Position numbers and translations under genes: made by a program
Part shown: in pieces, positions 13,133 through 64,000 of the stretch
Numbering within the stretch: the first letter of the stretch is position 1
Layout: every line of letters starts with the position of its first letter
Assembly (NCBI GenBank): GCA_907163375.1
Contig: CAJQUW010000932.1
Location: 620,001-684,000 of the forward strand
DNA: 64,000 nt
From: Prostheceraeus crozeri
Taxonomy: Eukaryota; Platyhelminthes; Polycladida; Euryleptidae
Direction of reading: 5' to 3'
The notes under the pieces: generated by a model
What the model saw: only the letters and a program-made list of their open reading frames with translations
Told to the model about the DNA's origin: nothing
Databases searched by the model: none

Positions 13133-13701
13133 TTAGAATTTTGCTAGACCAGCTCCGCTACAGCTTTGCTGGTTAGACCGAAGGTTGCTGCTCACACCAT
13201 TACCTCTTATTTCTTCAATTGAACGTTTTATGGCTACGCCTGATTTCTTCTTATGTTTACTATCAGACGGAGCTCCGCTCCTCAAGGTTTCACCCCCTAC
13301 AGCTATGTTAGCAATTTTGTTTTTTGTTTCCTCTGAAAGTTTTTTAAATTTTTTAGTTCTTCAGAATCATTCCTAAGTTTACGAATAGCTTCTAGTTGTT
13401 TTAATTCGTTTTGAGACTTAACAGCATTTGATATTGCACTAGCTGTACTACCTATAGCAGCTGCTCCTTTTGCAGCAGATGTAATCAAATCTTTATTATT
13501 TTTAATTAAGTTAACGATACTTCCAATACCAGAAAAGATGCCAGCTCATTCCGTGTGAACGGCACCTGCGGTGCCTAGGAACTTTTGTGTTCCGACTGTT
13601 TCTCTATTATCATAATGATAAACAGGATTCATACGTGGTTCATGAGCAATTCTTTGATTTGAAGCAAAATGTTTAAGATTGTGTTTATAAATTATAGGCA
13701 T
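13133..13701 (-). pseudogene. amphipathic small capsid-type protein, broken copy
   Basis: Homologue of the intact 177-residue gene at 58466-58999. This copy differs by a one-base loss in a T-run (~13335), a TGA in place of a glycine codon (13546-13548) and a 36-bp in-frame palindromic insertion (13561-13596). The lengths agree exactly: 534 + 36 - 1 = 569 bp. The core has an alternating Ala/Gly helix (ITSAAKGAAAIGSTASAISN) and a lysine-rich tail encoded partly by hairpins (ccagctccgctacagctttg, ~13149). A membrane-lytic or pVI-like role is possible but not shown. Confidence 0.65.
13561..13596. repeat. 36-bp in-frame palindromic insertion, A1 only
   Basis: Two tiny hairpins, ggcacctgcggtgcc and ggaacttttgtgttcc, lie inside the coding frame here and are absent at the homologous place in A2 (~58893). 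The flanks are otherwise collinear. The length is a multiple of three, so the insertion adds 12 codons without changing frame. Confidence 0.85.
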
Positions 13702-13773
13702 TTTTTAGGAATAAATTTGACTTTTAGGAAAAATATTTACGATCGGCTAAAGCCTCGAGGACGTTTGGTCCGT

Positions 13774-14661
13774 TTAAGATTTACGTTTGTGAATGTCCAA
13801 CAACTTCGTGATAACTTTATTAATTGTCTGTTGCACTTTATCTATTGCGTCAAGTAGCGTGTGATGTACTTTAATTTCTTTTCTATTAACTTGCATTTTC
13901 TCCTGATTCATCTTCAACGCCGTTTTAAGAGCATTTAACTTAATTTTAAGAACATCTAGTTGTCTTTGAACAGAATCTAACTGTTCTTTATTTTCTTTAG
14001 AGTTTTCTTGTAAATTTTTCTTTAATTCATTTTCTAAATTGATTTTAAGAGTTTTCATTTTATCAACTTTTTGATTAAGTGAGTTTACTTCATTTATTAT
14101 TCTATTCATCTTTTTCATTTGTTGAGTAATTTTAGAACTCAATTCATCAACACTTTTTTGGAATGTAGTTTGTAACTACTTTAATTTTTTTTAAAATTCT
14201 TTCAGGTAGTTTTTCTATTTCATCTTCTAATTGTTCTTTTAACATTTTTATATGATGTTTATTTTTAATGACTGCAGATTTTAACTTTATAGAAAGTAAT
14301 ATTAAAATTTTTGATTGTTCAGAAATCTTTTTAAAAAGTTTTGCTATATCTGCTTCTAGCTCTCTATCCTTTTATCAAGTTTTAATAATTTTTCGTTTAA
14401 TGATTTCTCATTAAGTTTAAGCAACTTTAATTCATTCATCAGTGGAACCAAAACATCGTTTATACATTTTTCTTTTAAGTCATTGATTTGTGTATCAACA
14501 TATTGTTTATTTGTCAACTCTGTATTTTGTTGCGGAAGAATAGAAAGATGCAATGGACCAGATAAAACGTCTCCAGTTTTCATGATATAATTTTCTATCT
14601 CTATTTCTAATTCGCGATTTGTCGGGATATATGCACCTCCACCAACATTTGGTAACATCAT
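13774..14661 (-). pseudogene. fibre-like protein with phage-tail motif and coiled coil, frameshifted
   Basis: The N-terminus (ATG at 14661) has MKTGDVLSGPLHLS and LTNKQYVDTQI, the pattern GDxxxGPLxLsxxPxxxxxxxNKxYVD seen in bacteriophage tail-fibre and collar proteins. After it comes a long heptad-rich coiled coil (LKLLKLNEKSLNEKLLKLD; later LDVLKIKLNALKTALKMNQE), ending at 13774. The coding region is split here by frameshifts near 14370 and 14180. The homologue at 59072-59936 is split at a different place. A trimeric spike is a natural reading; attachment function is inference. The gene diverges from the clamp gene at 14770. Confidence 0.6.
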
Positions 14662-14769
14662 TTTTTAAGCAATAAAAAAGTAATTTTCTTATATAATGAG
14701 AAAAAAAATAAAATTTTTTTCTAATAAAATTAAGAAAAATTTTTCTAATAAAAATAAAAAAATAAAAAA
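14662..14769. promoter_or_regulatory. divergent intergenic region, fibre-like and clamp genes
   Basis: An A/T-only spacer of about 108 bp separates the divergent ATGs at 14661 and 14770. Any promoter for both genes must lie here or inside the genes. A2 keeps a shortened version (59937-59980). No specific TATA element can be assigned because the whole spacer is A/T-rich. Confidence 0.4.
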
Positions 14770-14863
14770 ATGAAAAAACCAAATTTAAAAAAATTATATT
14801 CGTCTGCATCATCCTGTTCTTCTTATTCGACGAGATCAACGGGATTTGAAAATAAATGTTTTG

Positions 14864-14895
<32 letters not shown>

Positions 14896-16058
14896 AATCC
14901 ATGTATAGATGTAAAAATTTTATTTGAATTACAAGCCGAAATATTTAGAGAACACACTAGACACCTTCTATAGAAACTAATTATTGTATTTTTCCAGGTG
15001 ATCCATTTATTAAATTTATGGAGATTGTAAGTAAATATAATGATGTAGCTTATGTTGAATTAAATAAAGAAAATATGGTTATAATAGGTCATAATAACGT
15101 TTATGGTTTTATTAGAGCAGTGTTACCAATTAGTAATACTGAATGGATAGAAAATAAAATTATTAATTATATTAATGTAACAGAATTAGTTAAAAAATTA
15201 AAATCCTTTTCAAAAGAAAAAATTAGATTATTTGTTGATGAACAAAACCAATTCAAAACAAAAATTCATATCGAGAGTAAAAAGCATAACGAAGAATTAT
15301 TATGTCAAGTATATTATAGAGATACAATTTATAAACAAGAAACAGAAATGCCCCAAAGACATGATGATGATACGTATATGGGATTATATTCCAACTTAAA
15401 TATTAATTTATTAAAATCTTACATCAATAGTTTAGCACAACAAGAGAAAATTTATATGTGGACAACACCTTATACTATTAACAATGACCATAATCATAAT
15501 CATAATAATCCTCTGAATCATATTGAAGAATCTGATAAAGATGATGATGATTCTGAGACATCTGAAAAAGGTGTAAATGGTAAAAAAGATTATAAAAATA
15601 TTTGTAATCATAAAAATTTATCTAAATTTCATTTTCTTACAATTGAAAATAATAATGATGGAATAGTTGAAGATACTGTTAGACAACTATGTGTCCGGTC
15701 TACAAAATTTTAATTAGGATTTACATCTAATCAATTTAAAATTTTATCATCTTTAATAAAATCTAAAAGTGATTTAGATTATGGTGGTGTTATTAAATTT
15801 TCCAAAAGAGATCAAAGACCAATATTTTTCTCTATTATATTATCATCAGATAAAAAATGTAATTTAGAGTTAGATATTCCAATAAGAGAATGGTATCCTA
15901 TCAGGGAATGGCATCCTATACCAAAAAGTGTAATTTATGATGTTGAAGAATCAATTTATGATGATGAAGAATCAATTGATGATGATGATGAAGAATCAAT
16001 AGTTAGTGAAAAAAAATTTAAATTATCTTTTGATAAAACGTTATATGACAAAACTTAA
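14770..16058 (+). pseudogene. PCNA-like sliding clamp candidate, broken
   Basis: After an Asn-repeat N-terminus the protein has segments that parallel PCNA order. These are FIKFMEIVSKYNDVAYVEL (first helix and strand), INYINVTELVKKLKSFSKEK (like the NLTSMSKILK region) and NLNINLLKSYINSLAQQEKI (start of the second domain). After a TAA at 15711 comes FTSNQFKILSSLIKSKSD with a Pro-containing strand and an acidic tail. The frame stays open past that TAA to 16058. A clamp would hold the neighbouring DNA polymerase on its template. This copy has a 5-bp loss near 14960. The TAA is shared with A2. The assignment rests on pattern, not on a search. Confidence 0.45.
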
Positions 16059-16160
16059 TATGATAAAACTTAATGTGATAAAACTTAATATGATAAAACT
16101 TAATATGATAAAACTTAATATGATAAAACTTAATATGATAAAACTTAATGTGATAAAGAA
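16041..16160 (+). repeat. 15-bp tandem repeat (tatgataaaacttaa)
   Basis: About seven to eight copies of a 15-bp unit, tatgataaaacttaa or its tgtgataaa variant, follow the clamp frame. A2 has only two or three copies in each of two short runs (61327-61370 and 61410-61450). The unit length is a multiple of three and makes artefactual ORFs on both strands. Confidence 0.9.
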
Positions 16161-16528
16161 AATAAAATATATTAGGAACGTGAAATATATAGTAATATAA
16201 AATAACACTCAAGTCCTTGATATTATAATGTTTATATTTAAAATTAAAACACAATTTTTTCTTTAAAAAATAAAAAAATGGAAAATACCAAGTTTTATTG
16301 TAACTTATGTAAAAAAAGTTGCAAACAAAAAGAAGTTATCAATCTCATTTAAATAGTAAATTGCATTTACAAAATGTAGATCGAGTTGATGAAGGAAATA
16401 TATTAAAATTAAATAATTATATAAACTATCTAGAAACATTACCTACTGATATAAAAGTTAAAAAAAAATGTTTGATGATTATTCACATTCGGAATATAAA
16501 AAAGTTTTTAATAGTGAAGATGAACATG

Positions 16529-16558
16529 TACGAACCGAAGGTTCTAGGGCTTTGCCCG
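16529..16558. repeat. palindromic micro-insert in the polymerase frame
   Basis: The sequence cgaaccgaaggttctaggg followed by ctttgcccg encodes RTEGSRALP in frame. The same element, encoding the same peptide, appears in a different gene of A2 at 60708-60737. A related reverse-orientation copy lies at 22612-22641. It contains the hairpin gaaccgaaggttc. Confidence 0.8.
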
Positions 16559-18198
16559 CACCAGATGGGAGATATTTATTTAGCGATACTGATGAATTTA
16601 ACGAAATAGATGAATTAAACGAAATTAAAAAAACAGATGAAGCTGAACGAACCGATGAAGCCGTAACAGATATAAAATATTTATTTAATGAATCTGTTGA
16701 ACATAATGAAACCGATGAAACTTTTTCTGATATTCTAACCAACTTTTATAATATATTTAGAAAATCTTTCAAATGTTACATGAATGTAGAAGTACTTTAT
16801 ACAAAAATGGACCTGATGGAATTCCTGAAGAAATAATACAAGGACATTTTACAAATTCACAAGAAATTCATAATGTAAATGATATACAACCCATATTTGA
16901 ATCGATGACACTTAAATTAGAAAATTGTATAATTGAAGCCCAGTTACGTGAATCTGGTTGGAGATTTGTTAAAATACTATCTAAGAAAATAGTAATTGAT
17001 AAATATAAAAATAATACTGGTGGTAGTTATGTTCCTTTACCTTTCAGTTCACCACAAATAATCAACATAAAAAATGAAGATGATTATTGTTTTCTGTGGA
17101 GTATTATAGCACATTTACATCCTGCAGAATATCATAAAGAAAGACTAAGTCATTATAATAAAGAAGAATATATAAAGGAATTTGTTCTCTCTGATGGCTT
17201 ACATAAATTTCCATATGATTATAATAGGTTAATAAAGTTTCATAAAAAGAATAAAAATTTAATTGAAGTAAATGTTTTTGAATTAAATGTGAATTATGTT
17301 TCTATTGGTAAAATTACTCCACTTTACATGTCAATTAGAAATAGTATATAATGATAGAGGAAATTACATGCATCATAATATTTTTTACCAAGGAAATATA
17401 ATAAATACTGAAAAATTTGAAATTATAAAAACACTATCACCAATAATGATTAATCATAATAATTATAAAGGACGTAATTATAATTATGATTATGATACCG
17501 ATTATTTATCTTTATCTTTAGAATATCAACAAAACTTACAATTTTTAAATGAACTTTTACAAAATTGTAAAACAGATTATCAACAACAAACAAAAATATT
17601 AGTACAAGAATATGGCCATAAATATCAAAATAAGATAGAAACGATTCAAAAATTAAATGAAGAAAATGATGAAGACAATAAAGAATTAAATAATGAAGAA
17701 AATGAAACCAATCAAAAAATAAATGTATATTTAAAAAAATGTCTACAACAATATAAAGAACAATATGATAAAGAATATAGTTATCAGTTACAAATACTAA
17801 ATCAAAATTTTCATCGAAATACATTTAATCTTACAAAAGAAATTGATGAAACACATGAAATATATCAAGATAAATTTGAAAACTAGAACAGACAAAACAA
17901 CCAGCACAAGTGAATATATTATATTATCAGGGTCATTTTATATTCTGTAAAGATGTTTCTATATTTACAAAAACTTCAGATAATGCTAATTTTCCTTGTC
18001 TCCAATGTATGACGAGCTTTAGAACTTTAGAAGAAATGAATAGACATTTGGAGAATTGCCAACAAAATGAAGCAGTCAGAAACACATTTCCAAAAAATGA
18101 TTATTTAGAATATAATAAATGGTATTTTAAAATTAAAGTACCCTTTACTATTTATTGTGATTTTGAAGCATATAATGTTAATATGACACAAAATCACG

Positions 18199-18231
18199 GG
18201 ACATCGGAGATGTCTTCCAGGGCTTCGCCCG
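18199..18231. repeat. palindromic micro-insert in the polymerase (GTSEMSSRASP)
   Basis: The segment cgggacatcggagatgtctt followed by ccagggcttcgcccg encodes GTSEMSSRASP between the exonuclease start and the next conserved block. A near-identical element (GTSKMSSRASP) sits elsewhere in the same gene only in A2 (61986-62024). It contains gacatcggagatgtc and a cgggc...gcccg pairing. Confidence 0.8.
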
Positions 18232-20825
18232 ATTCTGATAATTATAAATATGAAAAAAGTGCATCTGAACAAAGTAAAGAAAAATATTTGTTTGAACAAA
18301 AACCATTATGTTGGGGAATGTACATTCATTCAAATTATCCTGAATTATTTAAATCAGAATATTATCAATACTATGGTGAAGATAGTTCAGAAATGTTTAC
18401 AAAGAAAGTAGAAGAATTACAAAATTATTTTTCACAATTGCTTGAAACAAATATACCAATGCTTCCATTAACGGATGAAGAAAAAATTAATTTTGTTAAT
18501 GAAACAAATTGTTATTACTGTGGAAAAGAATTTACAAAAAATTATAAAAATGGCAAAGGTAGATATCTTGACAAAGTAAAAGATCATGATCATCTAAATG
18601 GATTATATAGAGGTGCAGCACATAATTCTTGTAATCTTAATGCTAATAAATTTAAATGTAACTTTGTTCCTTCATATTTCTACAATGGTTCTAAATATGA
18701 TTTCCATCTAGTAATGAAAGATTTATTTTCATCTGAAAAATTACAACAACAACAAATAAATGTACTATGTAAAACAGAAGAAGAATATTTTTCAATGCAA
18801 TTATGTTGTATTAGAATTTTAGATGCATTTAGATTTTTTACTCCTTATTCATTAGATGTTATGGGAAAAACTTTGAAACCTGAACAATGTAAAATATTAA
18901 ATAAATATAATTTAAAACCTTTGAAAGGAATATTTCCGTATGAGTTCATAACTGGAGATTTTAATTCTGTGAATAAAATTATGGAAGAAAAACAACTTCT
19001 TCCAATAAATAAATTTAAATCAACATTAAAACAATCACAATTATCTGAAGAAGACTATGCAGAAGCTGAAAAGAATTGGAGAGAGTTAAATTGTAAAACA
19101 ATGTATAATTATACAATGAAATATCTTCAGATAGATGTATTAATCCTTACTGATCTTTTTGAAAACTTTCGTGACATGTGCATAGAATATTACGGAATAG
19201 ATCCATGTTATTGTTATTCTACACCAGGTTTAACATGGTTAGCAGGATTAAAACATACAAATGTTAAACTTAAACATTATAAAGAAAATACATATGATAA
19301 ATTATTATTTTTTGAATCTGGAATTAGAGGTGGAGTTTCATCAGTTTTAGGTAATAGATATGTTAAATGTTACAATAAAAAAGTAAATCCTGATGATTAT
19401 GGAATAATGAAACCTTTATCTCCAGAAGAAAGTGATCAGTTTATAAAATTGTTTAATCAAAATATAGAAGGACTTATATCAAATGAAGATAGTCAAGCAG
19501 CAGTTGATGAAATCATGAGAGAAAACTATTTGTTATATTATGATTTTAATAGCTTATATTCTTCTTGCATGATACAAGAATTACCAACAGGTGAAATGTC
19601 ATGGTGTAATATTCTAGATTATCAAAAAACATATGATGGAAATTATAATCATGGTTATATATATGAAGTTGATTTAGTATATCCTGATGAAATAAAAGGT
19701 GCAACAAAATATTTTCCTTTCTGTCCCGAAAACAAAATTCCCAATATAGAAGATTTTACAGATTATCAAAAATCTATAATTCCTAAGAAATGCAGACCAA
19801 CAAAAAAACTTATGTTAACACAAAGTAATAAAAGAAAGTATGTTGTTGAAGGAAGAATGCTAGATTGGTATTTAGAAAATGGAATGATTCTCACCAAAAT
19901 ACATCGAAAACTATTTTATCAAAAATCTAGGTGGTTAAAAAATTATATAGAGTTCAATATTGAAAAACGTAAAATAGCTAAAAGAAATAAAGATGATTTT
20001 GGAAACGTGTTCTTCAAATTAATGAATAATGCATTTTATGGTAAGACTTTAGAAAATGTGCGTAATAGACAAAATATTGAAATAGTTTATGATAAAGATA
20101 GGTTTCAAAATTTAACAAGGAAACCTACATATAAAAGAACTACTAGATTTAGTGATGAACTATGTGCTGTACATTTACGTCGAATCAGCGTAAAACATGA
20201 TAAGTTTAATTTCATTGGATTCACTATATTAGAATTAGCTAAACTATTTATGTATAAATTTATATATGATTATTTAGCACCTGCTTATGGCAAAAACTGT
20301 AAATTACACTTTACAGATACCGATTCTGTTTTCTTAGAATTAACAATACCGTATAATTCTTCACTTGATGAAGAAATTAATAAAATAAAAGATTTCATTC
20401 ATCCTTCTGATTTATGTAAAGTAAAAGATGAATTAGAAGGAAATGAAGATTTCATAACAGAAGCTATATTTTTAAAATCTAAATGTTACTGTTATGATAC
20501 AACTAATAATATTAAAACACATAAAACATTAAAAGGAATTTCAAAGGCATCAGTGGCTAATCAAATAACATTTCAAGATTATAAAAATGTATTATTTAAT
20601 AATGAAATAAAAACAGCATGTAATTATAGACTTAATTCAAAGAAACATAAAATGTATTTAAATGAAGAACATAAATTAGCATTAGATCCATTTGATGATA
20701 AAAGAAAAATTTTACCTGATGGAATAACTACTTCACCTTTTTAATTTTCTAATTTCTAAGATAGACAAATTTGATATATATAAAATTAAAAAAAATATTA
20801 TAACACTATATTTGTATATCTTTTA

Positions 20826-21592
20826 TCACTCGGCAAACAAATCTTCTATAACTCTATCATGAATTTTTTTATCAATATTAATTGTAATGAAGCCATAATC
20901 TTTTGACCAAGCATTGTTACACGATTGTTTAAATTCATCTTTATTTCTTACGCATAAATCTCTTAACAAATCACTTAAGTTTCTTGAATTTATTTCAAAT
21001 AGTATAAATATATTTGCATTCTTTCTAATAACACTTCCGTCTAATGAATACATACTTTGTGTTAAATAAAAAACACTACAGTTGTTATGTCTACCTCTTG
21101 TGAAATAATTTCTCTGAACTGACTGATTTCTATCATTAACACAATCATCAAAAATTACACAATGTTTCATTGTTTTATCTAGTTTACTAGGATCTTGCAT
21201 ATTACCACTATCATCTATTAATTGTATCTTTATATGCTTATTTTTATTAGATTCAACTAACTGATTATTTTTTGCTGCTTCTTCACACCACGAACTTATT
21301 TTTTCTTCATCTTCAGATTTTTCATATTCTTTGAATAATGAAGCAATTGCTGTTTTTTTAAGATTATTTTCAAATCCATATTTCAAAAATTGATAGACGG
21401 GTTGTTCTGCTGTTGTTGTATAAATTATAGGATTGTTATAATCCAAAAAATTTGGAGTCGTTAAAATTTTAAATAATAGATACGTTTTTCCACATCCTGA
21501 TCTTCCACAAATAACTGACAAAACTTTATTAGATAAATTTGGATGGTGATTAAATTTAAGTTTTTTTTATTTAATGGTAGTACTTCACTCAT
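20826..21592 (-). pseudogene. packaging ATPase (FtsK/HerA, A32-like), N-terminal frameshift
   Basis: The main frame (20826-21521) has Walker A GRSGCGKT at its start, Walker B HCVIFDDCV (~125-133) and the sensor-like FYLTQSM (~153-159). This is the pattern of the genome-packaging ATPase shared by Polintons, adenovirus-like and large DNA viruses. It would pump the element's DNA into a capsid. The natural ATG is probably at 21592 (MSEVLPLNKK), but an A-run near 21567 puts that start out of frame with the Walker A region. It is convergent with the polymerase gene, 81 bp apart. Confidence 0.8.
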
Positions 21593-21666
21593 TTTTTAAT
21601 AAAAAAATTTATTTTTATTTTATTTTTAAAGAAGAAGAAGAAAATTAAACTTCTCTAGCTTTGCGT

Positions 21667-21772
21667 GGGAGTTTATACCTCTCGAACGGGAGTTTATACC
21701 TCCCGAACGGGAGTTTATACCTCCCGAACGGGAGTTTATACCTCCCGAACGGGATTTTATACCTCCCGAACC
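21667..21772. repeat. 21-bp palindromic tandem repeat, five units
   Basis: Five tandem copies of a 21-bp unit whose core gggagtttatacctccc is itself a hairpin. The array lies between the ATPase and penton-like genes and overlaps the last codons and stop of the latter. The unit is a multiple of three. It resembles a single palindromic micro-insert that was amplified in tandem. Confidence 0.9.
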
Positions 21773-22546
21773 AAAAGATCTATCATAATCTCTTCACCTC
21801 CAAAATTTATTTCTTGTCCTTTCTGATATGTGATTCTCATGTTAATGTTGTTAATAGTTTTTCTTGTAATAGGGAAATATATTAATGTTTGTGGAAGTAC
21901 ATTTAATCTATAACCAATGGGTACAGTAAAAGCTGGAAAACTGAATATTAAATTTGACAATTTACCATTTATATATCCTCCTTCAATAATGTCACAATGT
22001 ACAAGAATTGAATTTATTTCAGTTATTTTTGGAATCTTCTCACCTAAATGATAACCTTGACTATAGGTTTGTTTATTAAATCCTAATAGCTTTGACAATG
22101 ATCTATCATCATTAAAATCAACTTGATGATTTTCGTCTAAAGTAAGAGAAAATTTATTAACTGCCGGTTCAACTGCAAAATGTAATTGTTTCTTATCTTT
22201 AAATGGTATACCTAAATGTCTCTTAATTTCATTTGATATTGATTCATCTTCGTAAGAACCAGGAAGAAAAGTTTGTATTTTCCATGTTTTGCCTTTATCA
22301 GTAGAATATCTAAATTGATCATTCACATTTTTGATAACGTTTTGAATAGTGTTAAATGTAGAGAAACTAGTCAATGCAATTTGATAATTTTTATTCTGTT
22401 CTAAATGTAGAATGGGTTCTAAATTACAAGTGTGTGATGAAGTAGTTGTTATAATTTTTAACGTCGTACTAAACGTTTGATGAACCCAAAATCTCTGTCA
22501 AATTTTCTAAATGATTATTAATTTTGTCTAAATCTGCTGAACACAT
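21757..22546 (-). pseudogene. penton-like minor capsid protein, frameshifted near its start
   Basis: The main frame (21757-22374 and upstream codons to ~22480) has a pattern I associate with Polinton minor capsid proteins: LEPILHLEQNKNYQIAL early, then SLSKLLGFNKQTY, INSILVHCDIIEGGYINGK, PQTLIYFPITRKTINNINM and GGEEIMIDL at the end. In this class a single jelly-roll protein forms the capsid vertices. The probable ATG is at 22546, but one base is missing near 22490, so the N-terminal ~25 codons are in another frame. The stop codon lies in the 21-bp repeat array, so the C-terminus was altered by it. Confidence 0.65.
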
Positions 22547-22611
22547 TTTTTAGTTAAAATTTTGAATAAATATTTTTTTATAAAAAAATTAAAAACAACA
22601 ACATATTTCAG

Positions 22612-22641
22612 CTACGGGCGAAGCCCTAGAACCATCGGTTC
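22612..22641. repeat. palindromic micro-insert near a stop codon
   Basis: A reverse-orientation relative of the RTEGSRALP element: cgggcgaagccctagaacc then atcggttcg. It abuts the stop codon of the next minus-strand gene (22626) and supplies its terminal sequence. Confidence 0.7.
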
Positions 22642-23436
22642 GTTATACTTTTATAATCCTCTTCATTTAGAATCTTCTTTTCTAACAGTCTTTTCAATAT
22701 AGCATGAATTTCATTGAAACTAGAATTATGTCCTTCTTTTATTGCAGATATTAAAATATTTAATCTATTTAGTAATTCTTGTGGATCATCTGGTAAAAAT
22801 ACAGTTGTTTCTGTTTTAAAACCTTTTCCTACTTTAACTCCCGTTGATAATAAATTTTCTAATTGTTTATAACGTCTAAGAGATTTTACTGCACCAACTC
22901 TATCTAACATAGCTTTATATTTTATGAGATCTTCTACAGCATAATTATTTAAATCTGCTCCTCTTAAAAGATCAACAAAATTTCTATCTAAATTAAAAGG
23001 AGATTTATCTGGTGAAAAAATTAAACCTCGAAAAGGTTGTGGAAATATATTTTTTGTCCGAGATAAAATCTAGGTATTGTTTTTCCATCTATAAATGAAA
23101 TAGAATGTTCAAATTTCATAGATTTGGGTAATTTCTTATTAATGTTTGATTCTAGTAATCCATAGTCATCTAATATAGTTTTGTGCTCTGGATCTGTTAT
23201 ATCAATTTGTTTATCATTATTTGTAAGTTCTTTTTCAAGAGTTTTAAATGGTTTCATAGTTTTTTCAAAATCAGTTTTTACTTGCTCGGTTTGCTGCATT
23301 TTTTCAAACATATCAGATTGAATACCAGCTTTTATCATTCTATGTTGAAGATGATTTTCTTTCATAATATTTCTTTGTTTTATTAACTCTTCTAATTGTT
23401 TTATTCTTTTAAAATTATCAGCTCTAATTTTATCCA
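22626..23436 (-). pseudogene. conserved Polinton protein of unknown function, frameshifted
   Basis: Two overlapping frames form one gene from ATG 23436 to 22626. The N-terminal part is a charged coiled coil (RIKQLEELIKQRNIMKEN). The break is near 23035 in an A-run. After it come a FSPDKSPFNLDRNFVDLL block and a NNYAVEDLIKYKAMLDRV block, then a lysine-rich C-terminus. Proteins with a similar P-x-L/D...Y...L segment occur widely in Polintons without a known role. It lies between the penton-like gene and the terminal gene on the same strand. Confidence 0.5.
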
Positions 23437-23558
23437 TTTTTAAAATATAATATTTGAATTTTGTGGTAACATTGGAATACAACAAAAACATTTTACTGAA
23501 CAAATTATTTTTTTATTGCTTTGTTGTCTGACATCTTTTCGTTTAAAGTTTTCTCGTT

Positions 23559-24384: not shown

Positions 24385-24392
24385 TTTTAAAG

Positions 24393-24887: not shown

Positions 24888-24893
24888 AATTTC
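24888..24893. repeat. 6-bp target-site duplication, right (AATTTC)
   Basis: Matches 8186-8191. Joining the two flanks restores the sequence seen in the empty paralogue at ~7600: gggaatttcatga followed by ccgcattataatgg. Confidence 0.92.
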
Positions 24894-48989: not shown

Positions 48990-48991
48990 AA

Positions 48992-51072: not shown

Positions 51073-51073
51073 T

Positions 51074-52837: not shown

Positions 52838-52839
52838 TC

Positions 52840-53234: not shown

Positions 53235-53755
53235 AGTAATGGGCAAAAGACTGTTCCAGGACACCATAAAATTCAAAAAAATAGTATCTTTAAAAACGAC
53301 ATAAATTCATGAATTTAGACCCTTTTTCAGGTTTTTAAGACCTAAATTCATAAATTTAGGCGTTTTTAAAAATACCCAATTTTTCAAATTTATCAAAATC
53401 TCAAATTTGAGAACTACAATTTTCACTCTTAAAATCATGACCGTTCCAGGATACCGAAAATCATAAAAGTTAGGAATCTGAAAATTTGAGAATTACAATT
53501 TTCTCGCTTAACTCATGACCGTTCCAGGACACCGAAAATCATAAAAATTGAGAATTTCAAATTCATGAATTTTATCCATCTTTCAGGTTTTTAAAATATA
53601 TCATGTGTCTAATAATATTTCTTTAAAAATGGAAGAAACAAAAGTGGAAGAAACCGCAAGAATATATCCTTCGTTATCTCAATTAAAAACAAGTGAAATG
53701 GATCTCAATTATAATTAAGATTAGAGCATTATGATAAATTAAGAAGACACAATTA
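53235..53755 (+). repeat. A2 left terminal inverted repeat with right-end gene fragment
   Basis: 53235-53615 matches the terminal repeat of A1 with fewer internal units. Instead of leaving the repeat, the sequence continues at ~53616-53745 with tttctttaaaaatggaagaa and caagaatatatccttcg. This is the 5' end of the gene that sits at the right end of A1 (24384 downward), followed by a shortened agattagagcattatgat. The left end of A2 therefore contains right-end sequence and the inverted repeat is effectively longer. Confidence 0.8.
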
Positions 53756-54539
53756 TTACTTAGACATTCTTCGTTATTGTATTCTCAACATTATTTAAAG
53801 TACTAATTGTGTGAACTAGAAGATCATTGTAACTCATAAACTCAAAATTATTCAATGAACCCGTACACTGGCTGATAATTGAAGAGAGACAGAGATTGAA
53901 GAGAGGGGGAGATTTATTGTTCTAGCAATGGAAACATCTAGCAGCTTTCCCCTAAAATTATCGTGGAAACTCTTGTCATTTCAATTTACCCATCGGTAAA
54001 CTTTTGACATTTCAACTTACGCGTGCGAAAAAGTTTTGACATTTCAATTTACCCCTACGTAAATTATTTTCAGAATCTCTTTTCAAAATCTATTTTCAAA
54101 GTCTGTTTTCAAAGTCTGTTTTCAAATTCAGTTTTAGAAATCGATCTGCAAAATTCATTTAGCGTTTGCCAAACACATACGGGTAGTAAAGTACTTCCCA
54201 TTGTGAAGACATGAATAGATTAAGCACATAAGAGTGCATTGACAATAAAAGCAAATAACAATAAAATTCTTCTTGTTAACTCAGAACGCATAAACGCCGA
54301 TATGCGGGTTAGTTGTCATGGCAGTTTTAAACAATCATTTCAACGATGAAACATATTAACAAATGAAGCTCATGAAGAAAATGGAAATATGTAAAACAAT
54401 ATAGATTAGAATAATTATAATATAATCATTTCAAAATCGAATAAGTAGTAAGGAAAGTCATCATTAGAGAACAGTTTAGAATCAATACCCCCTCCCTTCT
54501 GACTTCTAGGGGTCCCTTAAGAAATTTTTTTATTATAAA
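53756..54539. other. copy-specific sequence between terminal repeat and protease
   Basis: No gene. It contains short direct repeats such as ttttcaaaatctattttc / ttttcaaagtctgttttc (54070-54125) and gacatttcaatttac (three times, 53975-54055). It does not align with the equivalent region of A1. It becomes collinear at cccttaagaaattttt just before the protease ATG. Confidence 0.5.
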
Positions 54540-54980
54540 ATGAGCAACATAAATGAGTTTTTGAAATTATATGGAACACAAACAACAACGAATTTCGATT
54601 TAAAGAAAATCGCAAATCAATTGTGAATAAAGAATTTTCATGTTCTAATGAGAGACGAATTACAATTCCTAAAAAATAAGCCAACAATAACTATAAATTT
54701 CATAACGAATCTTCATACGTCAGATGAAAAAGGAATACATTGGTCTGCAGGTATCTTTAATAAAAATCGAGATAATTACTATTTCGACCGCCCGGAGGCT
54801 GAGAACTATTGGTTCGACTCTTATGGACTTCCAACTACAAACGAAGTCAAAAAGTTACTTGGCAATGGAATTTGTAATACATTTCAAATTCTAAAACCGG
54901 GAACTACTTATTGTGGTCAATTATGTCTTTATGTTTTATTTAAATTACAAAAAGAATACCATTTCTTGATATTATGTTAG
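54540..54980 (+). pseudogene. protease, A2 copy (TGA and frameshift)
   Basis: Homologue of 9093-9551. A glycine codon has become TGA at 54624-54626, and one or two bases are lost near 54950 after the catalytic TTYCGQLC, so the C-terminus is shifted. The His and Asp motif regions are still readable (GIHWSAG, WFDSYG). Confidence 0.85.
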
Positions 54981-55053
54981 AATTGAACGAACCGTAGGTT
55001 CTATGGCTACGCCTAACAAGGGAATTTCATTCCCGAAACGTTAGTTCCAAAAA

Positions 55054-56345
55054 TTAAAAATCGCTTCGTTGTAATTTATTTTGATAAAATCGGCCTCTGA
55101 TATTTTCATCATCTAAATTTTTGATTTCGTAAGTAATCGGATGAGTTTGATTTATTTTACAAACTTCAAATATCTTATTCGTCCAGTATCCGACGAAGCC
55201 CTTTTCAAATTTATTCTTATATTTAAATATTGTAACTCTATCTCCAATTTTAAATTTCGGCTTAAGTTTCTGCAAATTCGGATTACTCTCATTCGAATAA
55301 TTATTCTCGAATATTTTTTTCTTATCAAATCAGGGTCGTCAGAAGCATTCTTTGGAGTCTCTTCAATACCAGAATGAACTTTATTATTGTACTCTTCTAC
55401 AACTCCTGGTAATATCTTCAACCATTTCTGATTTCTTTGCTCAGTAAATTTCTTGAATAATTTATTTTTTAACGTCCGATTGAATCTTTCTATCACTACA
55501 GCTTTTCCAGCGTTTTCAGTTGAATAAACAGTTTCAAATAGTGGCTGAACGTTTCGGTTATAAAATTCCGACCCTTTATCAACAAACAATTTTTTTGGCT
55601 TTCTATTACTTTCTTTAAAGATTTCTTCAAACGCATATTTAACTGATAGACCACTTTTATTTTTTAAAGGCTTTACCCAAGCGTATCGTGTATATAAATC
55701 TATAACGGTCAATGCGTATTTGTAGTCCCTTTCATTAGGCATATATATTAGATCAGCACTCCAAATATCATCTTTATTAAATACTTTTACTTTCAATAAA
55801 TATTTAGGCTTTCTATATTCTTTATGAATTTCGGACGCGTAGGTTCGAGCGTTGCTCTCAGACAGCTTTGCTGTTGTTTCATCTATCCCCTGACCGAATA
55901 ATATTTTAGCTTGTAAAGCTTTCTTAACAAACATTCTTTCAATTTTTTCTCTAAATGTAGGATTTTGAATACTATCTAATTCTTGAATCATCTTCTTATC
56001 AGCTGCATGTCGAGAACTTAGATCATGATTTCGATAAGTTAAATCATTTCTATAAGCTGCGGCATCTACTCTATTTATTGGTTCTTCACCTGGTTTTGGA
56101 TTATTATTCTCATCTAGTCTTATATCTAATCGAGTTCCTGGACCAGTATATGAATGACCAGGAAGATGTTTTTCTTTCGAATATTTACTCCAAATAAATC
56201 CAGGAAAGTTTTCTAATGTTCTTTGTATGTCGTTACCTTCATAAATTTTACAATTTCAGGTTTTATGTACTTTTAATAGATAATTTAATAAATCTAAATT
56301 AGAAATTTTTAATTTAATTAAATTTTCGGAATTTGTAGAATTCAT
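55054..56345 (-). pseudogene. PLA2-integrase, A2 copy (TGA, His-to-Asn, 1-bp loss)
   Basis: Homologue of 9617-10918 with the same order and the same TGA before the PLA2 domain (56256-56258). The PLA2 catalytic His-Asp pair reads RND here instead of RHD. A one-base deletion near 55320 shifts the frame after the catalytic core. Integrase D, D and E are present. The length agrees: three codons shorter at the N-terminus and one base less. Confidence 0.8.
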
Positions 56346-56369
56346 TTTAAAAGATAAAATAAAAGTTTT

Positions 56370-56430
56370 ACCGTATAGAACCTTGTTCAGAGGCTTTAGT
56401 CGATCGGACCAAAGGTCCTGAGGTTATTAC
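56370..56430. repeat. intergenic palindromic insertions, A2 only
   Basis: About 60 bp absent from the same place in A1 (~10960), including ggaccaaaggtcc and ggctttagtcgatc. Related elements occur at 13741-13772 and 59050-59075. Confidence 0.75.
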
Positions 56431-56909
56431 CTAATCATACTAGGACTTAGATATATTCCAGAACCATCTTTAGTTTCTTTAATTTCAATTAAATCATCAA
56501 CATTGAGGAGAATATTTTTAAGAACTCGTTCTCCTTCATCAACTAATTTTAATTTACTAATGAAATTATCTACTATTCCGTCACCCCTGGCAACTTTCTC
56601 TAACTCTCTATTATGACGTTTTTGTTCTTCTAATGCTGCCTTCTCTGATTTAGTTTTATTTACTGCTTGGACAATACCAGCTGTCCCACCTGCAACACTT
56701 CCTGCTGCTGCCATGCCACCTATTATTAGTGGAATTAATTGGAGAATCCCGCCATTCTTTTCTTCTTGTAATTGAATATTCTCTATCATTGGTTTACTTA
56801 TGTAATACTTTTTTTTGTTAATCGTAATAGTTTTAGGGGTATTTTTGTCAACAATATTACGTAATTTTAATTCAACAGTTTTATTATTATTACTTTTCGC
56901 TTCCGACAT
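56427..56909 (-). CDS. small glycine-rich hydrophobic-loop protein, A2 copy
   Basis: 160 residues, intact, same as 10964-11446 with a few substitutions (PLIIGGMAAAGSVAGG). Both copies remain open, in contrast to most other genes of the family. Confidence 0.62.
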   Translation of the reverse strand: MSEAKSNNNKTVELKLRNIVDKNTPKTITINKKKYYISKPMIENIQLQEEKNGGILQLIPLIIGGMAAAGSVAGGTAGIVQAVNKTKSEKAALEEQKRHNRELEKVARGDGIVDNFISKLKLVDEGERVLKNILLNVDDLIEIKETKDGSGIYLSPSMIR

Positions 56910-57028
56910 TTTTAATAAAAAAATTCTAAGTTACGAAAAAATTTTAATCTATTCTAGTTATGAAAAAATTTTATTACTAATTACTAAAAAAAATTAATCT
57001 AAGGATTTAATTAACTTATCTCGAGGCT

Positions 57029-58356
57029 TCAGCCGATCCTAGCCATCTTTCCAATAAGAATTTCAATAGAATATTTTACATCTTCTAGCAATAAACCATA
57101 AGCCATCAATGAAGTTGTGGAATCTTTCTTTTCAATATTAATTGTTACATCGCAACCAGTCTTGATAATATCTTCAGATTGTGCACTTAAATCGAAACAG
57201 AAAACAGGATATAAATTCTTCCAATCTCCAGGAGTTAATTGTGGTTCAACTCCAAATTCTATACAAAGATTTCGATAAGAATCATATCCTTCCATAAATT
57301 GATTATTGGTATCATCGAATCTTAATGGATCAATTGGATATCGGATTTGATTTAATGAAACTTGTAAACTTCGAATTGTATTAATATGGAAGAGATCTTA
57401 TCAAAACTTGGAGAATTATTTCTTTGAAAAGTTAGTAATAAATATCTTGGAGTATTCGCAGTTTTAGTAAAATGCCAGTTAAATCTTTGTTCGAAAAAAG
57501 TTACTGAACTAGCAGTACGCTTTAGAAAATTTACTGGAATTGGTTTGTTAGTATTTAATCTTTTTGCAATAGCTGTTTCAACCTCTAAACTAGGAGTAAT
57601 ATGCTTAATCCACCATTCAAGTCTATCAATTTTTAGATATGCTTTTTTTCCAGTCTTACCAAAAAAGATTAATTCATTATTTGTTGTACGATGAATTATT
57701 AATTTAAATTTTAATTGACATGATATTTTGTCATAATCTAAATATCCGAATAATGGAGACAATGACCAATTTACTGTCTGTTTACTTTTCTTGTTAAATT
57801 CACGTCTTTCTTTATATGCAGTATTGTTTGTTTTATTTAAGTGATTTGCAATATTTTCTACATCTTTTGCAATTCCTGCTGCACCTGTTCCAGTGTGAGT
57901 TAAATCATCAGCAATTATACCATCATTAGTATCAGGAAACCAACCTTCGATTTCATACTTTCTATTATTTTCACCAATTGTTACAAATCTAAGCATTGTA
58001 TCAATTACACCTGGAGAATCACTTATTGTTTCTATATTTTGAGTTGCAACATCTAAACGCATTTGTGTAAATAATCTTGGAAAGAAATTATTCTCTAGTG
58101 CAATATTATCGGTATCTGGTAATGGTGTTGTAAAATTGGAATCACTATATAAAGAATATTCACAGTGTAAAAATGAATCAGGTAGATATAAATAACTTTG
58201 TTGATTATCAACTTCAAAAATTAAATCTCCTCCAGTATTTACTCTACTAGAAGATCCGGGATTCATAGCAATTCTTATATAGTCATTCTTTTTTTGATTA
58301 TAACTAACACCTGGTGGTTTATCTAATTCAAATTTATTTTCAATTAGCGAAGACAT
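57029..58356 (-). pseudogene. major capsid protein candidate, A2 copy (7-bp deletion)
   Basis: Homologue of 11646-12980 without the two TGA codons but with a 7-bp loss near 57396 that shifts the last ~110 codons. The lengths fit exactly (1335 - 7 = 1328). The N-terminal ~320 codons are open from ATG 58356. Confidence 0.62.
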
Positions 58357-58465
58357 TTTTATAAAAAATAATTTGACTTTTTGTTTTTTCTCATACACAG
58401 AAAAAATTTTACTAAAAAAATTTTACTAAAAAATTTTACTAAAAAATTTTACTAAAAAATATATT

Positions 58466-58999
58466 TTAGAATTTTGCTAGACCAGCTCCGCTACAGCTTT
58501 GCTGGTTAGACCGAAGGTTGCTGCTCACACCATTACCTCTTATTTCTTCAATTGAACGTTTTATGGCTACGCCTGATTTCTTCTTATGTTTACTATCAGA
58601 CGGAGCTCCGCTCCTCAAGGTTTCACCCCCTACAGCTATGTTAGCAATTTTGTTTTTTGTTTCCTCTGAAAGTTTTTTTAAATTTTTTAGTTCTTCAGAA
58701 TCATTCCTAAGTTTACGAATAGCTTCTACTTGTTTTAATTCGTTTTGAGATTTAACAGCATTTGATATTGCACTAGCTGTACTACCTATAGCAGCTGCTC
58801 CTTTTGCAGCAGATGTAATCAAATCTTTATTATTTTTATTTAAGTTAACGATACTTCCAATACCAGGAAAGATGCCAGCTCCTTCCGTGTGAACTGTTTC
58901 TCTATTATCATAATGATAAACAGGATTCATACGTGGTTCATGAGCAATTCTTTGATTTGAAGCAAAATGTTTAAGATTGTGTTTATAAATTATAGGCAT
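58466..58999 (-). CDS. amphipathic small capsid-type protein, intact A2 copy
   Basis: 177 residues beginning MPIIYKHNLKHFASNQRIAH. The middle is GAGIFPGIGSIVNLNKNNKD followed by an Ala-rich amphipathic helix. The C-terminal third is basic and serine-rich, partly encoded by hairpins such as ccagctccgctacagctttg (~58486). It may correspond in role to small capsid-interior or membrane-active proteins of related viruses, but no motif proves this. It lacks the 36-bp insert of A1. Confidence 0.62.
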   Translation of the reverse strand: MPIIYKHNLKHFASNQRIAHEPRMNPVYHYDNRETVHTEGAGIFPGIGSIVNLNKNNKDLITSAAKGAAAIGSTASAISNAVKSQNELKQVEAIRKLRNDSEELKNLKKLSEETKNKIANIAVGGETLRSGAPSDSKHKKKSGVAIKRSIEEIRGNGVSSNLRSNQQSCSGAGLAKF

Positions 59000-59071
59000 T
59001 TTTTAGGAATAAATTTGACTTTTAGGAAAAATATTTACGATTGCTTAGTAACCTGAGGACCTTTGGTCCGA

Positions 59072-59936
59072 TTAAGATTTACGTTTGTGAATGTCCAACA
59101 ACTTCGTGATAACTTTATTAATTGTCTGTTGCACTTTATCTATTGCGTCAAGTAGCGTGTGATGTACTTTAATTTCTTTTCTATTAACTTGCATTTTCTC
59201 CTGATTCATCTTCAACGCCGTTTTAAGAGCATTTAACTTAATTTTAAGAACATCTAATTGTCTTTTAACAGCATCTAACTGTTCTTTATTTTCTTTAGAG
59301 TTTTCTTGTAAATTTATCTTTAATTCATTTTCTAAATTGATTTTAAGAGTTTTCATTTTATCAACTTTTTGATTAAGTGAGTTTACTTCATTTATTATTC
59401 CATTCATCTTTTTCATTTGTTGAGTAATTTTAGAACTCAATTCATCAACACTTTTTTGGAATGTAGTTTGTAACTGCTTTAATTTTTTTTGATTCTTTCA
59501 GGTAGTTTTTCTATTTCATCTTCTAATTGTTCTTTCAATAATTTTATCTGATGTTCATTTTTAATGACTGCAGATTTAAAATTTTTGATTGTTCAGAAAT
59601 TTTTTTAAAAAGTTTTGCTATATCTGCTTCTAGCTCTCTATCCTTTCTATCAAGTTTTAATAATTTTTCGTTTAATGATTTGTCATTAAGTTTAAGCAAC
59701 TTTAATTCATTCATCAGTGGAACCAAAACATCGTTTATACATTTTTCTTTTAAGTCATTGATTTGTGTATCAACATATTGTTTATTTGTCAACTCTGTAT
59801 TTTGTTGCGGAAGAATAGAAAGATGCAATGGACCAGATAAAACGTCTCCAGTTTTCATGATATAATTTTCTATCTCTATTTCTAATTCACGATTATTCGG
59901 GATATATGCACCTCCACCAACATTTGGTAACATCAT
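59072..59936 (-). pseudogene. fibre-like coiled-coil protein, A2 copy (frameshift near 59545)
   Basis: Homologue of 13774-14661. The N-terminal 130 codons are continuous here (59544-59936) and include MKTGDVLSGPLHLS and NKQYVDTQI, then the first coiled coil. The C-terminal coiled coil (59072-59440) is in another frame. In A1 the break positions differ, which shows the two pieces are one gene. Confidence 0.6.
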
Positions 59937-59980
59937 TTTTAAAACAATAAAAAAGTAATTTTTTTATATGAAAATAAAAA

Positions 59981-61382
59981 ATGGAAAAACCAAATTTAAA
60001 AAAATTATATTCGTCCGCATCATCCTGTTCTTCTTATTCGACGAGATCAACGGGATTTGAAAATAAATGTTTTGCTAATAATAATAATAATAATCCATGT
60101 ATAGATGTTAATATTTTATTTGAATTACAAGCCGAAGTATTTAGAGAACAGACTAAAGGTTTACCTTCTATAGAAACTAATTATTATATTTTCCCGGGTG
60201 ATCCATTTATTAAATTTATGGAGATTGTAAGTAAATATAATGATGTAGCTTATGTTGAATTAAATAAAGAAAATATGGTTATTATTGGTCATAATAATGT
60301 TTATGGTTTTATTAGAGCAGTATTACCAATTTAGTAATACTGATTGGATAGAAACTAAAATTATTAATTATATCAATATTAGAGAATTAGTTAAAAAATT
60401 AAAATCTTTTTCCAAAGAAAAAATTAGATTATTTGTTGATGAACAAAACCAATATAATATTCATATCGAGAGTAAAAAGCATAATGAAGAATTATTATGT
60501 CAAGTTTATTATAGAGATACAATTTATAAACAAGAAACATTAGAAATGCCCCAAAGATATGATGATGATACATATATAGGATTATATTCAAACTTCAATA
60601 TTAATTTGTTAAAATCTTATATAAATGGTTTAGCTCAACAAGAGAAAATTTATATGTGGACTACACCTTATACTATTAACAATGACCATAATCATAATCA
60701 TAATAAACGAACCGAAGGTTCTAGGGCTTTGCCCGATCTTAAAGAATCTTATGATAATAATGATGATTCTGAAACACCTGAAAAAGGTGTAAATGGTAAA
60801 AAATATTATAAAAATATTAGTAATTATAAAAATTTAAGTGAAGAAAAATTTATATCTGATACTGATGTACATGATATTAATACTACATATAATCAAAATT
60901 TATCTAAATTTCATTTTCTTACAATTGAAAATAATAATGATGGAATAGTTGAAGATACTGTTAGACAACTACGTGTCGGGTCTACAAAACTTTAATTAGG
61001 ATTTACATCTAATCAATTTAAAATTTTATCATTTTTAATAAAATCTAAAAGTGATTCTGATTATGGTGGTGTTATTAAATTTTCCAAAAGAGATCAAAGA
61101 CCAATATTTTTCTCTATTATATCATTATCATATAAAAAATGTAATTTAGAGTTAGATATTTCAATAAGAGAATGGTATCCTATCAGGGAATGGCATCCTA
61201 TACCAAAAAGTGTAATTTTTGATGTTGAAGAATCAATTTATGATGATGATGAAGAATCAATTGATGATGATGATGAAGAATCAATAGTTAGTGAAAAAAA
61301 AAATTTAAATTATCTTTTGATAAAACGTTATATGATAAAACTTAATATGATAAAACTTAATATGATAAAGAAAATAAAATAA
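59981..61382 (+). pseudogene. PCNA-like clamp candidate, A2 copy
   Basis: Homologue of 14770-16058. An extra base near 60331 splits the first-domain frame (59981-60334) from 60285-60995. The TAA at 60993-60995 is at the same place as in A1, and the clamp-like C-terminal sequence continues in the same frame after it. It includes a palindromic in-frame insert encoding RTEGSRALP (60708-60737) that A1 lacks here. Confidence 0.45.
60708..60737. repeat. palindromic micro-insert in the clamp gene, A2 only
   Basis: cgaaccgaaggttctagggc then tttgcccg, in frame, encoding the same peptide as the polymerase insert at 16529 and 61820. A1 has unrelated codons at this position (~15508). Confidence 0.8.
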
Positions 61383-61569
61383 CTTAAGAACGTGAAATGT
61401 ATAATAATATATGATAAAACTTAATATGATAAAACTTGATGTGATAAAGAAAATAAAATAACTTAGGAACGTGAAATATATAATAATATAAAATAACACT
61501 CAAGTCCTTGATATTAGAATGTTTATATCTAAAATTAAAACACAATTTTTTCTTTAAAAAATAAAAAAA

Positions 61570-64000
61570 ATGGAAAATACCAAGTTTTATTGCAACTTAT
61601 GTAAAAAAAGTTGCAAACAAAAAGAAGTTATCAATCTCATTTAAATAGTAAATTGCATTTACAAAATGTAGATCGAGTTGATGAAGGAAATATATTAAAA
61701 TTAAATAATTATATAAACTATCTAGAAACATTACCTACTGATATAAAAGTTAAAAAAATGTTTGATGATTATTCACATTCGGAATATAAAAAAGTTTTTA
61801 ATAGTGAAGATGAACATGTACGAACCGAAGGTTCTAGGGCTTTGCCCGCACCAGATGGGAGATATTTATTTAGCGATACTGATGAATTTAACGAAATAGA
61901 TGAATTAAACGAAATTAAAAAAACAGATGAAGCTGAACGAACCGATGAAGCCGTAACAGATATAAAATATTTATTTAATGAATCGGTACGCGGGACATCA
62001 AAGATGTCTTCCAGGGCTTCGCCCGTTGAACATAATGAAACCGATGAAACTTTTTCTGATATTCTAACCAACTTTTATAATATATTTAGAAAATCTTTCA
62101 AATGTTATATGAATGTAGAAGTACTTTATACAAAAAATGGACCTGATGGAATTCCTGAAGAAATAATACAAGGACATTTTACAAAGTCACAAGAAATTCA
62201 TAATGTAAATGATATACAACCCATATTTGAATCGATGATACTTAAATTAGAAAATTGTATAATTGAAGCCCAGTTACGTGAATCTGGTTGGAGATTTGTT
62301 AAAATACTATCTAAGAAAATAGTAATTGATAAATATAAAAATAATACTGGTGGTAGCTATGTTCCTTTACCTTTCAGCTCACCACAAATAATCAACATAA
62401 AAAATGAAGATGATTATTGTTTTCTGTGGAGTATTATAGCACATTTACATCCTGCAGAATATCATAAAGAAAGACTAAGTCATTATAATAAAGAAGAATA
62501 TATAAAGGAATTTGTTCTCTCTGATGGCTTAGATGAATTTCCATATGATTATAATAGGTTAATAAAGTTTCATAAAAAGAATAAAAATTTAATAGAAGTA
62601 AATGTTTTTGAATTAAATGTGAATTATGTTTCTATTGGTAAAATTACTCCATTTTACTCAGATTCAAAAAAATTTTATTTGAATAATAAAAATTTATGTC
62701 AATCAGAAATAGTATATAATGATAGAGGAAATTACATGCATCATAATATTTTTTACCAAGGAAATATAATATGTACTGAAAATTTTGAAATTATAAAAAC
62801 ACTATCACCAATAATGATTAATCATAATAATTATAAAGGACGTAATTATAATTATGATTATGATACCGATTATTTATCTTTATCTTTAGAATATCAACAA
62901 AACTTACAATTTTTAAATGAACTTTTACAAAATTGTAAAACAGATTATCAACAACAAACAAAAATATTAGTACAAGAATATGGCCATAAATATCAAAATA
63001 AGATAGAAACGATTCAAAAATTAAATGAAGAAAATGATGAAGACAATAAAGAATTAAATAATGAAGAAAATGAAACCAATCAAAAAATAAATGTATATTT
63101 AAAAAAATGTCTACAACAATATAAAGAACAATATGATAAAGAATATAGTTATCAGTTACAAATACTAAATCAAAATTTTCATCGAAATACATTTAATCTT
63201 ACAAAAGAAATTGATGAAACACATGAAATATATCAAGATAGATTTGAAAAACTAGAACAGACAAAACAACCAGCACAAGTGAATATATTATATTATCAGG
63301 GTCATTTTATATTCTGTAAAGATGTTTCTATATTTACAAAAACTTCAGATAATGCTAATTTTCCTTGTCTCCAATGTATGACGAGCTTTAGAACTTTAGA
63401 AGAAATGAATAGACATTTGGAGAATTGCCACCAAAATGAAGCAGTCAGAAACACATTTCCAAAAAATGATTATTTAGAATATAATAAATGGTATTTTAAA
63501 AATAAAGTACCCTTTACTATTTATTGTGATTTTGAAGCATATAATGTTAATATGACACAAAATCACGGGACATCGGAGATGTCTTCCAGGGCTTCGCCCG
63601 ATTCTGATAATTATAAATATGAAAAAAGTGCATCTGAACAAAGTAAAGAAAAATATTTGTTTGAACAAAAACCATTATGTTGGGGAATGTACATTCATTC
63701 AAATTATCCTGAATTATTTAAATCAGAATATTATCAATACTATGGTGAAGATAGTTCAGAAATGTTTACAAAGAAAGTAGAAGAATTACAAAATTATTTT
63801 TCACAATTGCTTGAAACAAATATACCAATGCTTCCATTAACCGATGAAGAAGAAATTAATTTTGTTAATGAAACAAATTGTTATTACTGTGGAAAAGAAT
63901 TTACAAAAAATTATAAAAATGGCAAAGGTAGATATCTTGACAAAGTAAAAGATCATGATCATCTAAATGGATTATATAGAGGTGCAGCACATAATTCTTG
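61570..64000 (+). CDS. family B DNA polymerase, A2 copy, open to the window edge
   Basis: From ATG 61570 the protein starts with half a C2H2 finger (FYCNLCKKSCKQK). The second half (RSYQSHLNSKLH) is in the -1 frame after AAACAAAAAG, exactly as in A1. From ~61625 the frame stays open through the window end (about 790 codons), with none of the four indels that break A1. It covers the long N-terminal region, a coiled segment, the CLQCMTSF finger and exonuclease DFEAYN, and reaches DHDHLNGLYRGAAHNSC at the last bases. Polymerase motifs A-C lie beyond the window. Confidence 0.85.
61986..62024. repeat. 39-bp in-frame palindromic insertion, A2 only
   Basis: Contains cgggacatcaaagatgtctt and ccagggcttcgcccg. 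A1 reads straight through at ~16695. It adds 13 codons (VRGTSKMSSRASP) to the polymerase N-terminal region without shifting frame. It is closely related to the element at 18199 and 63566. Confidence 0.88.

Follow-up and report, generated by a model that had tools for sequence, protein, structure and literature searches.

Probable ultra-short mobile double-hairpin elements in Polintons of the polyclad flatworm Prostheceraeus crozeri

Short GC-rich hairpins, many of them inside open reading frames (ORFs), are scattered through an AT-rich Polinton of the polyclad flatworm Prostheceraeus crozeri, which raises the question of whether such tracts are merely inherited with this virus-like transposon or move within it. 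Our answer, to which we assign a probability of roughly 0.8 as a whole, is that the cassettes are ultra-short mobile double-hairpin elements that insert into Polinton DNA with a short target duplication. Mobility itself, as put forward in the original prediction for this DNA, is very likely, because the cassettes occur in thousands of copies, exist as filled and empty alleles with direct repeats, distinguish near-identical carriers (L004 and L046, below) and are missing from related polymerases. The stretch analysed (hereafter the window; 64,000 nucleotides of contig CAJQUW010000932.1) carries two copies of the Polinton, located by self-BLAST and listed without strand: A1 at 8192..24888, with terminal inverted repeats (TIRs) at about 8192-8657 and 24428-24887, and A2 at 53234..64000, which runs off the window end (the next 6000 bases form locus L061). 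Both belong to one family, which has the Polinton components looked for, and are 96.6% identical over 9270 ungapped aligned columns; the components are TIRs, an rve integrase, a double-jelly-roll capsid protein, a type B polymerase (PolB) and an A32-like ATPase.

The predicted scatter of GC-rich hairpins in this family turned out to be stronger than claimed. Counting triloop hairpins with a stem of at least 4 and at least 3 G/C against an expected value for each region, we obtained 14 in A1 (1.25 expected) and 16 in A2 (1.35 expected), more than ten times chance, with little excess outside the A copies (mid-window, 19 versus 12.75 expected; left flank, 3 versus 3.4). Adjacent pairs, or double hairpins, numbered 6 in A1 and 5 in A2 against 0.02 expected in each, and the left flank had 0 (0.08 expected). 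Alignment of A1 with A2 recovered the insertions that had been read from the two copies: a net 36 bp in A1 (aligned at 13559), consisting of a 34-bp double hairpin at 13561..13594 flanked by AC repeats; 39 bp in A2 (aligned at 61984); and a cassette encoding RTEGSRALP in A2 at 60708, missing from A1, seen as a net gain of 18 next to an altered repeat tract. The intergenic insert of A2, put at about 60 bp, does bear hairpins (near 56360; hairpins at 56388..56418), and its size amounts to 31 bp plus local differences, with no clean 60. Of 18 A1/A2 gaps of at least 6 bp (end gap excluded), 5 touch a hairpin and 13 do not.

The cassettes fall into several families. Alpha (CGAACCGAAGGTTCTAGGGCTTCGCCCG, 28 bp) and beta (about 37 bp) have the 3' half TTCYAGGGCTTYGCCCG in common, while the left hairpin of beta is unlike that of alpha and its left end is variable; gamma (CGGCTAAAGCCAGAGGAGCTTCGCTCCG, window example 11625..11655 on the minus strand, gamma-like and missing from L053, L055, L062 and L064), delta (CAAGCCGATGGCTCTAGGACAAAGTCCG) and epsilon (AAAACCTGTGGTTCACAGTCGAAGACTG) are all 28 bp long, assuming a 2-bp duplication. 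The four 28-mers have 10-19 of 28 letters in common pairwise, on which account the view of the 28-bp families as unrelated sequences was dropped; judging from the letters, a remote common origin is possible. Exact patterns searched in the whole genome (2.05 Gb) gave 5277 matches for alpha (2698 + 2579), 2130 for beta (1091 + 1039), 2449 for gamma (1212 + 1237) and 1159 for delta (625 + 534), and the reversed-pattern control of each gave 0. The carriers are many contigs, up to 1.26 Mb among those examined, which also hold retroelements and Polintons. Cassette context was inspected in 90 places (60 alpha/beta loci, 20 further alpha places and 10 gamma loci) taken mainly in contig order and in several cases overlapping, so that the following is a sample result and no census: in 84 of the 90 the cassette was enclosed by A-family sequence, and in the other 6 such sequence lay on one side, within 7 bp. 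In this sample the elements are confined to A-family Polinton DNA. Viral contigs contained 0 matches to the alpha and beta patterns, prokaryote genome contigs 0 to the alpha pattern, the one searched there, and a search of viral contigs for relatives of PolB gave one pattern match, which was not confirmed.

Filled and empty alleles were paired by requiring an exact match of 12 bases on each side, which succeeded in 13 of 15 regions; these represent 12 sites, one TIR site appearing at both ends, and two allele rows were left out as tandem-repeat slips. Direct repeats of 2-3 bp flank the cassette at 11 of the 12 sites (AT, AT, AC, TT, AT, CAA, GAT, GTT, TTC, TTA and TA; at 19257 and 24403, where a second copy has a 1-bp repeat only, the best pair was used), and by a hand estimate a repeat of at least 2 bp is expected without duplication at about one site in five. 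Elements tend to start with C and end with G, so a 2-bp duplication explains repeats of both lengths, and the target duplication is probably short, 2 bp. Net insert lengths at the exact-flank sites were 24, 30, 33, 36 and 39 bp, exclusively multiples of three at 11 of the 12, TIR sites outside genes included. Adding 2 bp to an element of 22, 28, 31, 34 or 37 bp gives a number divisible by three, which leaves any reading frame undisturbed; the length of most elements thus makes them frame-neutral in itself, with selection in genes adding to it. A sorting of all indels by GC content and fold z-score put multiples of three at 7 of 9 GC-hairpin clusters in coding and 7 of 10 in non-coding sequence, and at 8 of 12 and 8 of 20, respectively, of the AT-rich ones; this sorting is noisy, and the frame claims therefore rest on the 12 exact-flank sites.

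Among the genes with cassettes is PolB (ORF 17910..20744, plus strand). Among open stretches taken from stop to stop with at least 200 aa, 82 rows hold a cassette, some of them chance frames, and the polymerase stretches of L095 (995 aa, reaching the locus end; L095 and L096 overlap) and L087 (963 aa, beginning at the locus start) hold six each. The six of L087 fall in columns with a gap fraction of 0.80-1.00 when aligned with 17 other polymerases, and the alpha and beta peptide motifs occur in none of the 120 PolB homologues listed of 271; since related polymerases lack the cassettes, the inserted state is derived. The polymerase gene uses a single phase of the elements' own plus strand for alpha, beta, delta and epsilon, the peptides being RTEGSRASP, GTSEMSSRASP, QADGSRTKS, KTCGSQSKT and close variants, with one alpha site read from the opposite strand. 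Alpha has a stop in one of three frames per strand and beta in none. Genes of a eukaryotic virus-like element repeatedly gain peptide cassettes with the frame kept. The clamp gene that the original prediction named as a second host of RTEGSRALP found no backing, as ORFs 15018-15713, 16468-16836, 16773-17351 and 17296-17886 had no Pfam match.

Which cassette occupies a site also varies. Seven of 12 tallied alpha/beta sites hold either kind and 5 hold one kind only (overlapping loci counted separately); the shared sites (16526, 16664, 16699, 18199, 19615, 22616 and 24403) keep a single orientation, with beta at 16664 and alpha at 24403 each seen in one locus. An alpha-beta tandem occupies 16526 in L013 and L060, and all nine combinations of empty, alpha and beta occur across 16526 and 16699. 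Change has been recent: L004 and L046, on different contigs, have 0 substitutions over about 1.28 kb outside cassettes (apart from two simple-repeat slips and one 1-bp indel), and within it L004 carries alpha and L046 beta at 16526, with a clean 30-bp alpha at 16699 in L046 alone; beyond this stretch they differ by 16 substitutions in about 750 bp. A copy tree covering 13 of 18 copies (5 lacked a flank), in which 1 of 9 branches is starred, calls for minima of 5, 2 and 7 changes of state at the three sites considered, a weak line of support. The beta-prime at 19615 has AT flanks in L087 but TT flanks in L051, as if elements had inserted there independently, and at 16699 alpha and beta have an identical altered left flank, which suggests exchange in place; both processes may occur.

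Such exchange leads to the most durable rival, in which cassettes spread mostly by recombination, passing between Polinton copies through gene conversion and through template switching at short homologies, and true insertion is rare. The common 3' half of alpha and beta, the nine combinations at 16526 and 16699 and the single orientation at the seven shared sites all suit it, and mixed cassettes in L046 and L010 point to recombination inside the common right half. Recombination, however, does not give rise to further sites flanked by short direct repeats where the sequence is unrelated, nor does it place one gamma element in both a TIR and a gene, and we consider it unlikely as the chief process.

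In seven 28-mers aligned without gaps, both partners had changed in 5 of 9 pairs, with a covariation score of 0.413 versus 0.159 in shuffled alignments (0 of 500) and no more than 0.185 after sliding the register; stems are preserved although the letters differ between families. Loops of the GNA type or its complement occur in 8 of 16 distinct A1 and A2 hairpins versus 7.5% in shuffles (P = 7.6e-6), and AAA or TTT loops in 6; in the rest of the window GNA or its complement occurs in 2 of 19 hairpins. The stability of GCGAAGC-type mini-hairpins generalises to GNA loops. The complement of the right hairpin includes GCGAAGC, which forms the core of a DNA mini-hairpin of extraordinary stability (PMC10527192). 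These features suggest that selection acts on the elements in single-stranded DNA form.

Type B polymerases that use a protein primer replicate DNA by strand displacement, and phage T4 endonuclease VII cuts branched DNA. PolB in the window has an endonuclease-VII-like (HNH) region at residues 191-245 that scores 19.3 bits against a Pfam cut-off of 23.6; in 4 of 5 related polymerases Endonuclease VII exceeds the cut-off, and the Cys and His positions of the region (C173, C176, H206, H208 and C221 by L087 numbering) do not vary across 18 sequences. We infer that this region is a candidate mover of the cassettes. Immediately before its DHDH motif (window 18550-18600, PolB) lies a 24-bp cassette in L031, L048 and L087. 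As a tentative scheme, strand displacement by the protein-primed polymerase would yield single-stranded Polinton DNA, exposed in Polintons and not in host chromosomes, where movement would take place; the displaced strand would fold into very stable GNA-triloop mini-hairpins, a structure-specific nuclease (the PolB region being the candidate) would make a 2-nt staggered cut, and gap filling would then create the target duplication. Purifying selection would afterwards retain inserts in tolerant loops and in the stop-free phase. A bolder extension, which we regard as doubtful, would have the cassettes be hyperparasites of a virus-like transposon, frame-neutral mini-hairpin elements living only in Polintons and copied and inserted by the Polinton's strand-displacing polymerase with its endonuclease-VII-like region; transposition of ssDNA hairpins would then be general among protein-primed replicons and among organelle genomes that replicate by strand displacement.

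An RNA route, in which hairpin RNAs would be reverse transcribed into Polinton DNA, has been proposed for the double-hairpin elements of Allomyces (PMC2800124), and the plus strands of the elements here fold as RNA as well. Direct repeats of at least 2 bp at 11 of the 12 sites, the absence of tails among the cassettes seen, a loop bias of the DNA mini-hairpin type and a Polinton-only location in the sampled loci, odd for a nuclear RNA mechanism, speak against this route, which we hold to be improbable. An ordinary miniature inverted-repeat transposable element moved by a cut-and-paste transposase would account for the short duplication and the presence/absence variation; at 28 bp, with no long terminal inverted repeats seen, several families of equal length and occurrence in a single virus-like element family in the sampled loci, this is very improbable. 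That hairpins were ancestral everywhere and are now only lost has in its favour site 15512, alpha-filled in most of 23 aligned loci, and can practically be dismissed given related polymerases lacking the cassettes and empty alleles that equal the undivided target.

Insertion of mobile double hairpins, our preferred explanation, has several observations to its disadvantage. The roughly 11,000 genome matches do not equal 11,000 insertions, as many copies have their sites by common descent, and alpha/beta exchange could be gene conversion. The mid-window too has 2 double hairpins versus 0.26 expected. Site 10796 has a 1-bp repeat only, no exact filled/empty pair was obtained at 9240 or 11119, and the duplication length is ambiguous between 2 and 3 bp because element ends match the duplication. 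The rule of three, predicted for inserts in frames, is not universal: 24403, outside genes, has copies of 31 bp and of 30 bp, the latter short of one stem base, and differences of 31 bp at 11625 and 22616 and of 61 bp at 20835 (without exact flanks) lie at or beyond gene ends, so that selection in genes accounts for part of the frame pattern. On the structural side, the seven covariation sequences were hand-picked for register and single elements reach modest DNA folding z-scores (-1.2 to -2.4); neither a transposase nor any mobilising activity was observed, and the endonuclease link is circumstantial, the region falling below the cut-off in this copy.

Among known systems, yeast mitochondrial GC clusters (GC42 and relatives) are the closest match in mode of working, being short GC-rich palindromes with optional sites, a short target duplication, units that merge and shuffle, and loops more variable than stems (PMC4478555). 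They differ in being mitochondrial and mostly intergenic, whereas the cassettes here are carried by a virus-like element of nuclear-type contigs, frequently lie inside genes and are mostly frame-neutral; their AG duplication is replaced by AT, TT, TA, AC and others, of fitting length. The original likening to Rickettsia palindromic elements is good as an analogy and no more, both comprising several families inserted in frame in unrelated genes that stay open (PMC10969869), although size and short duplication fit the yeast clusters better: the bacterial elements are about 150 bp, and those here are mostly double hairpins of 28-37 bp in inserts of 24-39 bp. Allomyces elements and the mitochondrial RHE of sponges are likewise hairpin-forming, optional and proliferating, the former also with two adjacent hairpins, but are mitochondrial and mainly intergenic, and the Allomyces elements are described as lacking flanking duplications (PMC2800124). 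Magnusiomyces mitochondrial inserts are palindromic, lie within protein genes and are many per genome, yet they are described as disrupting the frame and being bypassed by ribosomes (PMC5009743, PMC6649704), whereas cassettes in genes here are mostly multiples of three and leave the stretches open.

To our knowledge, frame-preserving hairpin insertion into genes is known mainly from bacteria and organelle genomes. Among the matches listed in open-licence PMC (titles and abstract starts), we found no account of cassettes of this kind, either in Polintons or in another virus-like element of eukaryotes, in agreement with the view that no Polinton equivalent had been described. New here are the location, a length that mostly keeps the frame and the presence of a plausible engine in the carrier; the kind of element is already known. 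According to excerpts of two accounts, ultra-short mobile palindromes are a long-standing puzzle of organelle and bacterial genomes with no settled mechanism (PMC4478555, PMC2800124). Thousands of copies, alternative site occupants and near-identical carriers make a data set for testing mechanism in a replicon whose own polymerase carries a candidate nuclease.

Further cassettes in the window were mapped as follows. An alpha-like degenerate double hairpin (9543..9570, plus strand) lies at the end of ORF 9093-9551, and the double hairpin GAGC-GTT-GCTC plus GACAGC-TTT-GCTGTC (10411..10439) lies in the integrase ORF, where L064 differs in sequence. At 13161..13281 the hairpins CAGC-TTT-GCTG and GGAGC-TCC-GCTCC vary in presence among copies. 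Alpha encoding RTEGSRALP (16531..16558, plus strand; A2 counterpart 61821..61848, plus strand) is elsewhere beta, an alpha-beta tandem or empty. The 37-bp beta encoding GTSEMSSRASP in PolB (18195..18231, plus strand; A2 PolB counterpart 63564..63600, plus strand) is replaced by alpha in L063 and L078. Alpha at 22615..22642 (minus strand) lies between called ORFs, with beta there in L034, L041 and L065. In A2, alpha at 60708..60735 (plus strand) lies in ORF 60285-60995, and beta at 61989..62025 (plus strand), empty in A1, gives way to alpha in other copies.

Several repeats are also of note. TIR subrepeats each carry an alpha cassette, at a spacing of 108 bp in L082 (C205), 115 in L002 and 190-200 in L008 and L019, so that TIR growth multiplies cassettes. 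A native 18-bp repeat (GAACGAACCGATGAAGCT type) around 16664 (window 16600-16680) is similar to alpha in the left half of the latter, of which it is possibly an old derivative. A 21-bp tandem repeat (CGGGAGTTTATACCTCCCGAA type; window 21687-21754), whose units are themselves hairpins, lies between called ORFs and varies in copy number among Polinton copies in steps of 21, 42 and 84 bp. No Rfam family reached its gathering score in the window. Both the window (51040-52340) and L029 have an ORF for a chromodomain integrase close to a Polinton TIR, the two being 97.8% identical, hinting at a preferred neighbourhood, and the named protein relatives of a retroelement in the window include starfish, sea urchin, periwinkle, coral and fish sequences.

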